From NCBI GenBank assembly GCA_028287345.1, contig JAQBPV010000100.1:1-40641 (forward strand): 40,641 bases of DNA, written 5' to 3'. The translations under genes were made by a program, and so were the position numbers. The notes below the pieces were generated by a model. The model did not search any database. It saw only the letters and a list, made by a program, of their open reading frames with translations, and was not told the DNA's origin. Within the stretch, counting starts at the first letter, position 1; every line of letters begins with the position of its first letter. Positions 32,731 to 35,637 of the stretch are shown piece after piece. This DNA comes from Gemmatimonadota bacterium (GTDB taxonomy: Bacteria; Gemmatimonadota; Gemmatimonadetes; Gemmatimonadales; Gemmatimonadaceae).

Positions 32731-32961
32731 TGCAGACTCCACTCTCGAAAAGACGACGGACATCGCGCGCCGATGAGATCATCGTTCACGCAAACGAGAA
32801 ATAGTGCTTCGGCCACACGTCCGTTATAGCTGGGCGCGGGTCGGTGAATCTAGCCGCACTCGCGCTCGCCTCCAAAGCCGCGAATGTGCCCGATTCCGTA
32901 CATTCATCCGCATACCTTGCGCCCTTGCCCTCGGAGGCCACGCCACATAGCGTCACCGGAC

Positions 32962-34110
32962 ATGTCACGACGCACCACGGACACTCCGCCGCTGGATAGC
33001 GCGGCCAGCCTCACCCCTCCGCCCAACCCGACTATCGGCCGCGACGCGCTCCAAGCGACCACAACGGGAACTCGGCGGTTCATCGCGCGCATCGCCAATC
33101 GGGACGAGGAATTTGCCCGTCACTTTCCGCGAAAACTCACGGTCAGTGCGCTGGGCATCGGCTCGTATCTGGGCGACTGCACCGACGCCGAGGACGAGTT
33201 ATATCGGCTGAGTGTCCATGCGGCCATCAACTCCGGCGTCAACGTCATCGACACGGCGAGCAACTACCGCTGCCAGCGATCGGAGCGCGTGGTGGGGCAA
33301 GCCATTGTCGAGGCAATCGCGGCCGGGGAAGTTCGCCGCGATGAGTTGGTGGTGTGCACCAAGGGCGGGTACGTCGCGCTGGATGGCGAGCCGCCGGCAT
33401 CGCGGGAAGCATACGAGCAGTGGCTCGAGAAGGAGCTCTTCGCGCCGGGGATTCTCACCCCGGACGACCTGGTTCGCGGCGGCCATTCAATCGCGCCGAA
33501 ATTCCTCGCCCACCAGCTGGCGCAGAGCCGAGCGAACCTCGGCCTCGACACCATCGACGTCTATTATCTGCACAATCCGGAAGAGCAACTTCTGATGCTG
33601 GACCGGCAGACGTTCATGGCGAAGATGCGCGCTGCGTTTGCGCTGCTCGAGGAGCGGGCGGAGCGTGGCGAGATCGCGGGCTACGGATGCGCGACCTGGC
33701 TGGGGCTTCGCGTGCCGCCGGACCACAAGCAGCACCTGACGCTCGCGGAGCTGATGGCGATCGCGCGAGAGGTGGGGGGGACGACTCATCACTTCCGAGC
33801 CGTGCAGTTGCCGGTGAGCCTGGCGATGCCGGAGGCGGCGCGACTGCCGACGCAGCCGCTCGGCCGGAAGCTGGTTCCGCTGCTCGAAGCGGCGGATGCG
33901 CTGGGGCTTGGCGTGGTAGCGAGCGCGCCGCTGATGCAGGGGCGGCTGTCGGTGGGGCTGCCGCCGGCGATGACCGAGCTCTTTCCGGCGTGTACGTCGG
34001 ATGCGCAGCGGGCGCTTCGTTTTGCGTCGTCGTTGCCAGGCGTTGCGACGGTTCTAGCGGGGATGCGGAGCGTCGCGCATGTGCAGGAGAATCTCGCGGC
34101 CTGGAGCTAG
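32962..34110 (+). CDS. Aldo/keto reductase
   Basis: This 382-residue NAD(P)H-dependent oxidoreductase of the AKR family has the catalytic tetrad Asp and Tyr in IDTASNY (near 96), Lys in CTKGGY (near 134) and His in YYLHNP (near 204). It is longer than typical AKRs (about 300) because of a 45-residue polar N-terminus (MSRRTTDTPPLDS onward) and an insert around residues 140-170. The C-terminal region keeps SLPGVATVLAGMRS, the usual cofactor-binding end. ATG 32962 is taken as start; the frame opens earlier at 32884. The substrate is unknown. It is convergent with the NHL-repeat gene. Confidence 0.9.
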   Translation: MSRRTTDTPPLDSAASLTPPPNPTIGRDALQATTTGTRRFIARIANRDEEFARHFPRKLTVSALGIGSYLGDCTDAEDELYRLSVHAAINSGVNVIDTASNYRCQRSERVVGQAIVEAIAAGEVRRDELVVCTKGGYVALDGEPPASREAYEQWLEKELFAPGILTPDDLVRGGHSIAPKFLAHQLAQSRANLGLDTIDVYYLHNPEEQLLMLDRQTFMAKMRAAFALLEERAERGEIAGYGCATWLGLRVPPDHKQHLTLAELMAIAREVGGTTHHFRAVQLPVSLAMPEAARLPTQPLGRKLVPLLEAADALGLGVVASAPLMQGRLSVGLPPAMTELFPACTSDAQRALRFASSLPGVATVLAGMRSVAHVQENLAAWS

Positions 34111-34188: not shown

Positions 34189-35637
34189 TTAGGGCAACTG
34201 CCTCTCAAAATCGAGAGGGAGATCGCCGATAGATCCGGTTCGGCGATCGACAACGGCTATGCGATGCCGATTGGTGTCCGCGACATAGACGAGCTCCTCG
34301 GTGATCGTGAGACCGGATGACTCGCTAAAACCACGCAGCCAGGTTTCTGAGGTCTTGCGTAAGCGGTCGATCCACTTGAGGGCGCCGTTGTACGAATCGG
34401 CGACCAGCAACCGCCCGTCGGACGCCATCGCGATACCCTGCGGGTGCTGGAGGCGAACGTCGTCACCGGTGCCGTCGGCGTCACCGAAGTCGAACAAGTC
34501 CGTTCCCACGATCGTCCGCACTCGGCCAGCGGGGTCGCGATCGGCGGTGCGGACGGCGCTCGACTCGCTGTCGGTGAAGCACAGCACGTCCCCCGCGAGA
34601 CAGATGCCCATCGGCTGCGCGAGTGCCGCCTCGGCATGCTTGCCGTCGTGCAGCTCCTCTGCGCCGCTGCCGCTGTGGACGACAGCGAGGCTCGTCGCGA
34701 GGTCCACTGCCACTATCTGATGCAGGCCGGCCATGGCCACGAACAGCGTTCGGTCGTCGAGCGCGAGATCCCACGGGGAGCTCATGGCTCCAGCGTCGAG
34801 ATCTTCCATCGTATGTGCCTGACGTCCGATGCCAGCAATCGTTCGCACCTCGCCCGTGTCGATCGAAGCGGCACGGATGGAGTGATTTCCCGCGTCGGCG
34901 ATGAAGAGCGTGTCGCCGGAGAAGGCGAGGCCCTGCGGGTTGGTGAAGCGAGGTGAGCTACCGTCGCGGTAGCCAGGAGCGTCGCCGCCCAAAGCGCGGT
35001 CCACCTGCATTCGTGTTCCTGCTTCATCGAGCGTGCCGACGAGGATACGGTGATGACCGCTGTCGGCGACGGCGATGCGTCGTCCGTCGACGGCGATCTT
35101 GCCCGGAAATGCCAAGTCTGTTTGCTCGACGGTGGATGGGTCAGGGGCGAAGTGCATACGGCCGGAGCGGAGGGTGCCGGCCGTTCGCGCTTCGCCAAGG
35201 ACGCGATCGATGAACGGGAAGAGTTCGGCAGCCACGTACTCGCCAGCACGCACGCCGATTACGTATCCGCGTGGATCGACAGCGACGAGCGTGGGCCACG
35301 CGTTGACGGCGTATGAGCGCCACACGCGAAACTGCCGGTCGTTCAATGTGGGATGGACGGCTCCCAGACGGATGGATGCATCGCGGATGTGCGCGCTGTC
35401 GCGTTCACCGGTGAACTTTCCGCTGTGCACGCCAACGACTTCGACCTCGTCAGGATATCTCTCTTTCAACTCCCGCAACTGCGGGAGTACATGGATGCAG
35501 TTGATTCAGCCGTAGGTCCAGAAGTCGAGCAGCAACAGTTTGCCGCGAAAGTCGGCAAGACGCAGGCGGCGCCCACCGGTATGAATCCAATCGGGTGTAT
35601 CGGGAAAATCGGGAGCGCGTACGGAGGGGCTATCCAT
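34189..35637 (-). CDS. Candidate selenoprotein: thioredoxin-fold and NHL-repeat protein (NHLRC2-like) with in-frame TGA
   Basis: Two minus-strand frames (35637 to 35509, and 35505 to 34189) join in the same frame through one TGA at 35506-35508, giving 482 residues. The first part ends LLLLDFWTYG, and the second resumes INCIHVLPQLRELKERYP. The NHLRC2 family has FWTYGCINCxHVLP here, so TGA replaces exactly the first Cys of the redox CxxC (residue 44), leaving Cys47. A hairpin follows at SECIS-like distance. The rest is intact: thioredoxin domain with VHSGKFTGERD and AWPTLVAVDPRG (to about 130), then six-bladed NHL propeller with SGHHRILV, NPQGLAFSGDTLFIADAGNH and ADSYNGALKWID. ATG 35637 is the likely start. 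Read-through as selenocysteine is inference; a nonsense mutation is the alternative. Confidence 0.75.
35469..35488 (-). promoter_or_regulatory. SECIS-like hairpin downstream of the in-frame TGA
   Basis: On the minus strand ACTCCCGC pairs with GCGGGAGT (8 bp) around the loop AGTT. The stem starts 17 bases, and the loop 25 bases, after the TGA at 35506-35508. Bacterial SECIS elements have a small apical loop with an early G, roughly 16-37 bases from the UGA; this one fits, with G at loop position 2. It lies within coding sequence, as bacterial SECIS elements do. Confidence 0.6.

Follow-up and report, generated by a model that had tools for sequence, protein, structure and literature searches.

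A gene for an NHLRC2/SOQ1-type protein in a Gemmatimonadota bacterium is, judging from sequence, very probably a UGA-encoded selenoprotein. It lies on the minus strand of the window, by which we mean the whole stretch of DNA analysed (40,641 nucleotides; contig JAQBPV010000100.1 of assembly GCA_028287345.1). We hold with high confidence to a reading in which an in-frame UGA at codon 44 is decoded as selenocysteine (Sec) through a hairpin downstream of it, and in which Sec44 and Cys47 would most likely form a redox pair. A UGA-encoded selenoprotein had already been claimed in the first-pass annotation of this DNA; the claim now draws support from the alternation of the codon with Cys codons, from the sel genes, from the conservation of the hairpin and from constraint on the protein after the TGA, all of which, like the codon itself and the fold, were obtained by computation.

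The reading frame, its TGA and the relatives

The features of the gene and its product are as follows:
34189 to 35637, minus strand: candidate selenoprotein coding frame, 482 residues, TAA stop included; orthologues known
35506 to 35508, minus strand: TGA, codon 44, proposed selenocysteine (translation, and the codon read in relatives)
35497 to 35499, minus strand: TGC, codon 47, proposed resolving Cys of U-I-N-C (invariant in a 22-row alignment)
35260 to 35544, minus strand: thioredoxin-like domain (Pfam Thioredoxin_8, residues 32 through 126; 48 bits), spanning the TGA
34213 to 35121, minus strand: NHL propeller region (residues 173 through 475; alignment to NHLRC2 6g7w and Pfam NHL repeats)

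The frame contains one internal stop only, the TGA of codon 44 (context DFWTYG*INCIHV), and ends in TAA. The first-pass annotation had held that two frames join in frame across this TGA with no other lesion, that family homology extends to both sides of it, and that it replaces the first Cys of YGCINC. All of this is borne out: translation shows the single internal stop, conserved family residues are found on both sides in the 22-row alignment, and aligned relatives have TGC or TGT at codon 44, the place of the first Cys of their YGC-I-N-C. The ATG start codon at 35637 is putative, as the open frame continues 41 to 42 codons upstream of it. TGA is also the stop of 7 of the 12 neighbouring window genes checked, so there is no wholesale reassignment of the code.

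The codon aligned to residue 44 was read at 109 loci, drawn from the window's genome and phylum together with 80 loci kept of 388 in a genome-contig scan (one of the six search patterns of that scan holds the Cys codon). It is TGA in 20 and TGC or TGT in 89, with no other codon at any locus, which is the exclusive alternation that the first-pass annotation had proposed looking for. Removal of five duplicates (identical over the 210 bases round the codon) leaves 15 distinct TGA genes, to which a family search adds two (L181 and L185; L182 was removed as a copy of L045), giving 17 distinct TGA orthologues. By the group codes of the genome set, these come from eight Gemmatimonadota genera in three families: the window's own family has six of the genera, family f3 of the same order one and family f4 of the same class one. 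Relatives from other phyla, among those read (80 kept of 388), all have Cys at codon 44.

No second internal stop was found in the 15 TGA genes whose frames were followed to the end; L185 leaves its contig. A second TGA that had been counted in L019 fits the normal end of that gene, 433 codons after the first. Two paralogues with stops (L012 of the window's genome, and L038) were considered as Sec candidates and set aside, their motif Cys being intact and the stops lying beyond the similar part. Three orthologues from another class of the phylum (L031, L033 and L034) have YCCINC, like the eukaryotic CCINC, rather than YGCINC.

Two neighbouring genes were counted at the orthologue loci by targeted searches, with some of the 17 fetched loci cut by contig ends:
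36020 to 37048, plus strand: metallo-beta-lactamase-fold hydrolase, divergent; in 12 of 17 fetched orthologue loci
32884 to 34110, plus strand: aldo/keto reductase, convergent; in 10 of 17 fetched orthologue loci

The metallo-beta-lactamase-fold gene is also present at four of four Cys loci. These shared neighbours support orthology and name no pathway. Just before the metallo-beta-lactamase-fold gene lies a small Cys/His-rich ORF of 93 aa (35742 through 36023, plus strand), found again in 2 of the 17 fetched loci, which by eye looks like a UBP-type zinc finger. Elsewhere in the window, a NUDIX protein with an NrtR/AraR-type winged helix (28823 through 29518, minus strand) adjoins a GH3-family glycoside hydrolase (29720 through 31783, minus strand); the pair is perhaps a regulated sugar-use unit.

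The downstream hairpin and the selenocysteine machinery

A bacterial selenocysteine insertion element (SECIS) follows its UGA directly. The candidate here is:
35470 to 35487, minus strand: hairpin CTCCCGC-AGTT-GCGGGAG, proposed bacterial SECIS (folding and conservation)

The hairpin has 7 bp (CTCCCGC/GCGGGAG) and an AGTT loop; the centroid fold adds one A-U pair, which places its start 17 bases after the TGA. With this eighth pair, folding agrees with the GC-rich, AGTT-looped hairpin that had been described 17 bases downstream. The folding energy of the 63-nt stretch is unexceptional (z = −1.73; 10 of 200 shuffles fold as well), and an Rfam scan of window positions 33900 through 36100 gave no SECIS match, the sole hit being an ar35 match below threshold on the opposite strand. 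Because the energy is weak, the case rests on conservation next to the TGA and on codon choice.

Conservation of the hairpin next to the TGA exceeds chance. All 17 TGA genes have it at one fixed offset; 15 form the full 7 of 7 pairs and two (L013 and L045) form six. The consensus is CTYCCGC-AGTT-GCGGRAG, and the loop is AGTT in 16 genes and AGGT in L026. At the same positions of 84 Cys relatives (>38% identity; no duplicate filter applied), seven pairs occur in one, six in one and at most five in 82, the count being of fixed positions only, so that a Cys gene folding a similar hairpin shifted by about 1 base (L025) is scored as without it. Dropped from this set were L011 and L038 through L041 (<38% identity, all Cys) as well as L036 and L037, which lack the thioredoxin (Trx) part; four later loci also stand outside it (L183, TGC; L184, codon uncovered; L186, the same gene as L035; L206, no stop inside and codon unread).

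Among the TGA genes, pair 3 varies (C-G in 10, T-G in 4, T-A in 3), pair 4 has a single two-sided change (C-G to T-A in L045), pair 2 is once T-G and once mismatched, pair 1 is once mismatched, and three pairs are invariant. All 16 TGA genes that have Leu at this place in the hairpin encode it as TTG, compared with 10 of 81 Cys relatives. TTG is rare: downstream of the TGA, 15 of the TGA genes use it for 58 of 561 Leu codons. Redrawing synonymous codons according to the usage of each gene gave p < 0.05 for the observed number of pairs in 16 of 17 TGA genes (L045 fails, p 0.18) and in 7 of 84 Cys relatives, these being related and hence non-independent genes. On conservation and codon choice, we propose that the hairpin directly after the UGA is a predicted SECIS. 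The UGA of codon 44 would be read as Sec by SelB with Sec-tRNA(Sec), directed by this element ∼17 to 18 nt downstream; Sec insertion itself we infer.

Profile searches of the window's own assembly (G000; 543 contigs, 91.8% complete, 5.6% contamination), made as the first-pass annotation had suggested, found all four of selA, selB, selD and tRNA-Sec, on contigs other than the window's. The selB match scores 317.7 bits over model positions 1 through 341 of 581, selD scores 369.1 bits on contig C487, near a tRNA-Sec, and the tRNA-Sec has the anticodon TCA (UCA). Two equal-score tRNA-Sec matches at contig ends (C441:5-95 and C487:33-123) are probably one locus split by assembly.

The machinery was surveyed in 24 of the 36 matched genomes, those with a long match covering the codon (14 TGA, 10 Cys). 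Over cut-off, the 14 TGA genomes hold selA in 13, selB in 13, selD in 10 and tRNA-Sec (≥68 bits) in 10. The one below the selB cut-off (G364) has a C-terminal selB piece at a contig end; the five missing selD or tRNA-Sec (G364, G307, G351, G261 and G143) are assemblies of 230 to 830 contigs at 77 to 92% completeness. Four of the 10 Cys genomes (G080, G026, G105 and G245) have all four genes, and six have no selA, selB or selD over cut-off; possession of the full set in Cys-form genomes means that the machinery does not predict the Sec form. A tRNA match in one of these six (G005; 49.3 bits against a cut-off of 47) was left uncounted, because matches of ∼49 bits also occur as second hits in other surveyed genomes and 5 of 14 control genomes also score over the cut-off of the tRNA-Sec family, a higher number than that of the controls we take to be Sec users. 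With relatedness uncorrected, selA is found in 13 of 14 TGA vs. 4 of 10 Cys genomes (Fisher p = 0.0088), and any strong Sec component in 14 of 14 vs. 4 of 10 (p = 0.0016, or ∼0.006 with G005 counted); the phylum as a whole often has selA (280 of 395 genomes over cut-off).

Roseisolibacter sp. H3M3-2 (G170; TGA, 97% complete) gave no selA by TIGR00474 or PF03841, and holds selB, tRNA-Sec and a TGA-bearing selD; this points either to an assembly gap or to an odd Sec system. The selD of four relatives (L176, L178, L179 and L180) has an in-frame TGA of its own, with a different hairpin. SelD is of Cys form in the window's assembly (L003, C487) and has an in-frame TGA at the corresponding place in G253 and G071 of the same genus (L178 and L179), so that SelD too alternates between Sec and Cys within one genus.

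Evolution of the proposed Sec form and rival explanations

Scattered disablement, which the first-pass annotation had named as speaking against a selenoprotein, is absent from the relatives, and substitutions after the TGA are constrained. Downstream of the TGA, third positions account for 49 to 56% of the differences within seven pairs of TGA genes (some genes reused); the six pairs free of saturation have dN of 0.20 to 0.29, dS of 0.67 to 1.06 and dN/dS of 0.21 to 0.35 over the same part.

A tree was built from 45 rows, comprising 17 TGA and 9 Cys genes of the window's class and 19 chosen outgroup relatives, with the site set to C in all. The 19 outgroup rows, three of which belong to another class of the same phylum, split from the other 26 at 100/100. 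TGA and Cys forms are intermixed among the 26 in-class rows, requiring at least five changes, of which well-supported branches force three. One gain with several reversals is favoured by the near-identical hairpin of the deepest TGA branches (L027 and L030); most likely, the Sec form arose a single time in the window's class, with several later returns to Cys.

One Cys gene, L035 (G159:C2, ∼586179 through 587711; TGC), keeps all seven hairpin pairs and has the AGGT loop seen in the Roseisolibacter sp. H3M3-2 gene L026, its sister in the tree (100/90). Its genome has no selA, selB or selD over cut-off, and belongs by group codes to one genus with the TGA genome G170. The simplest reading is that this hairpin is an apparent fossil SECIS, left when the gene recently reverted from Sec to Cys, the trait having been lost; plain shared ancestry of the DNA partly explains why it can still be seen. 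Together, the reversals and the fossil hairpin make a good case for studying how Sec is lost.

The MAG-quality assemblies behind the sequences raise the thought of a pseudogene or sequencing error, in which a single assembly would hold either a genuine stop or a wrongly called Cys codon. Against this, 17 distinct genes of eight genera have TGA at this codon, the 15 frames followed to their end have no further internal stop, and six pairs show the low dN/dS given above, which leaves such an explanation extremely improbable. Reading of the UGA as Trp or Cys without selenium, by leaky readthrough or a variant code, would accommodate the four TGA genomes without a strong tRNA-Sec match and the one without selA, but it fits poorly with the use of TGA as a stop by most of the neighbouring genes checked, with a hairpin that accompanies only the TGA form (save L035 and a few partial cases), and with selB over cut-off in 13 of 14 TGA genomes and present as a contig-edge piece in the 14th; we think it highly unlikely. 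The UGA might instead serve regulated termination, with restart at an available downstream start codon (the next listed is TTG at 35478) yielding a deliberate short protein. Such a product would lose the active site and the first strands of the Trx domain, yet conservation extends to the residues ahead of the TGA, and codon 44 is just where other relatives have Cys, so that restart is scarcely credible.

It is a separate question whether a true selenoprotein of this kind has already been catalogued under a generic UxxC name ("thiol-disulfide isomerase-like protein" or "redoxin family protein"). Such generic families appear in the 2022 and 2026 reviews with only a domain identifier and one accession, and the 2022 review assigns Thioredoxin_8, the best Trx Pfam here, to the isomerase-like family. 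Against this, the table of PMC13188914 (the 2026 review) has no entry naming NHL, NHLRC2 or SOQ1, the texts of the four selenoproteome papers searched (PMC13188914, PMC9312934, PMC12013277 and PMC1088965) do not contain the word NHL, and no NCBIfam model reaches its cut-off for the protein; prior cataloguing is, in our judgement, unlikely. Full-text literature searches yielded, among the matches listed, no paper describing the Sec form by title or abstract start. The first-pass annotation had put it forward as a form not known to be described, and the selenoprotein lists examined name no such family; the generic UxxC entries (MGB1650493.1, MAK15852.1, HEU0032618.1 and MBA3499694.1) stand there by domain and accession. 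As far as these sources go, this is a new Sec variant of the NHLRC2/SOQ1 family, and it would add a family to the 119 prokaryotic selenoprotein families and subfamilies of PMC13188914's own count.

Family, proposed redox role and comparison with known systems

The protein is NHLRC2/SOQ1-type over its full length, a Trx-like domain followed by an NHL propeller (Pfam NHL repeats, 99 bits). Its best PDB sequence match is SOQ1 (7djj; E 1.1e-83, residues 5 through 428), and human NHLRC2 (6gc1) matches with E 1.6e-78 over residues 6 through 475. An AlphaFold2 model made from the 22 rows (pLDDT 92.3, pTM 0.90) compares with 6gc1 at a TM of 0.90 by query length and 35% identity in the Foldseek alignment. 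Positions 44 through 47, W114 and P115 (the cis-Pro position, by sequence) are invariant in the 22 rows, U being read as C.

As the first residue of U-I-N-C, Sec44 would probably act as the attacking selenolate and would probably form a selenenylsulfide with Cys47; most likely, this would take place in the cleft between the domains, on a propeller-held substrate. We infer this chemistry, together with cell location and substrate. Cells pay a high price for selenocysteine and mostly use it in place of redox-active Cys; a Sec form that has persisted in several genera and families therefore gives independent evolutionary evidence for a redox nucleophile at the first Cys. At least in these bacteria, the place of Sec at exactly that Cys argues for this role. 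Trx-fold families with Sec at the first motif position are known (2022 and 2026 reviews).

The finding bears on the published doubt over a catalytic role of the CCINC site of NHLRC2 and SOQ1. In mammals NHLRC2 is essential, and it is the protein mutated in FINCA disease; in plants, SOQ1 controls one form of photoprotection. According to passages of PMC6107167, the CCINC of NHLRC2 lies in a conserved interdomain cleft, the protein showed no insulin-reductase activity, and the authors suggest that its domain takes no part in thiol-disulfide exchange; the missing activity speaks against classical thioredoxin chemistry. For SOQ1, passages of PMC10173003 leave the redox role unsettled. We consider it slightly better than an even bet that this is an undescribed selenoprotein family, old in Gemmatimonadota, whose Sec marks the first (C/G)CINC Cys as the redox nucleophile of the whole NHLRC2/SOQ1 family, so that NHLRC2 and SOQ1 would be dedicated redox enzymes acting on a propeller-held substrate despite the reported lack of insulin-reductase activity in NHLRC2. 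The Sec form also offers a more reactive enzyme for substrate finding.

TlpA, ResA and DipZ and the listed Trx-fold UxxC selenoproteins share the thioredoxin-like fold. Membership of TlpA/ResA was rejected, the NCBIfam scores being far under their cut-offs (ResA, 44.3 of 170 bits; TlpA, 33.8 of 230), and solved relatives that match in the Trx part alone have no NHL propeller, unlike this protein. Cys-form bacterial orthologues (Gemmatimonadota, Chloroflexota, Acidobacteriota and others) have the same domains at 38 to 54% identity and, among those read, mostly YGCINC; many of those outside the window's class are ∼625 to 660 residues long. The lumenal part of Arabidopsis SOQ1 (PDB 7djj/7djk) combines Trx-like and NHL domains, as here. 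According to passages of PMC6107167 and PMC10173003, SOQ1 also has a HAD domain, a membrane helix and a C-terminal domain, which the Gemmatimonadota protein lacks (no Pfam match to the HAD or C-terminal SOQ1 domain in the 482 residues, and no membrane helix by eye). Human NHLRC2, as described in passages of PMC6107167, has the same order of Trx-like domain and NHL propeller, with a CxxC-type motif at the domain cleft; that motif is CCINC, whereas the Gemmatimonadota protein has YG-U-INC.
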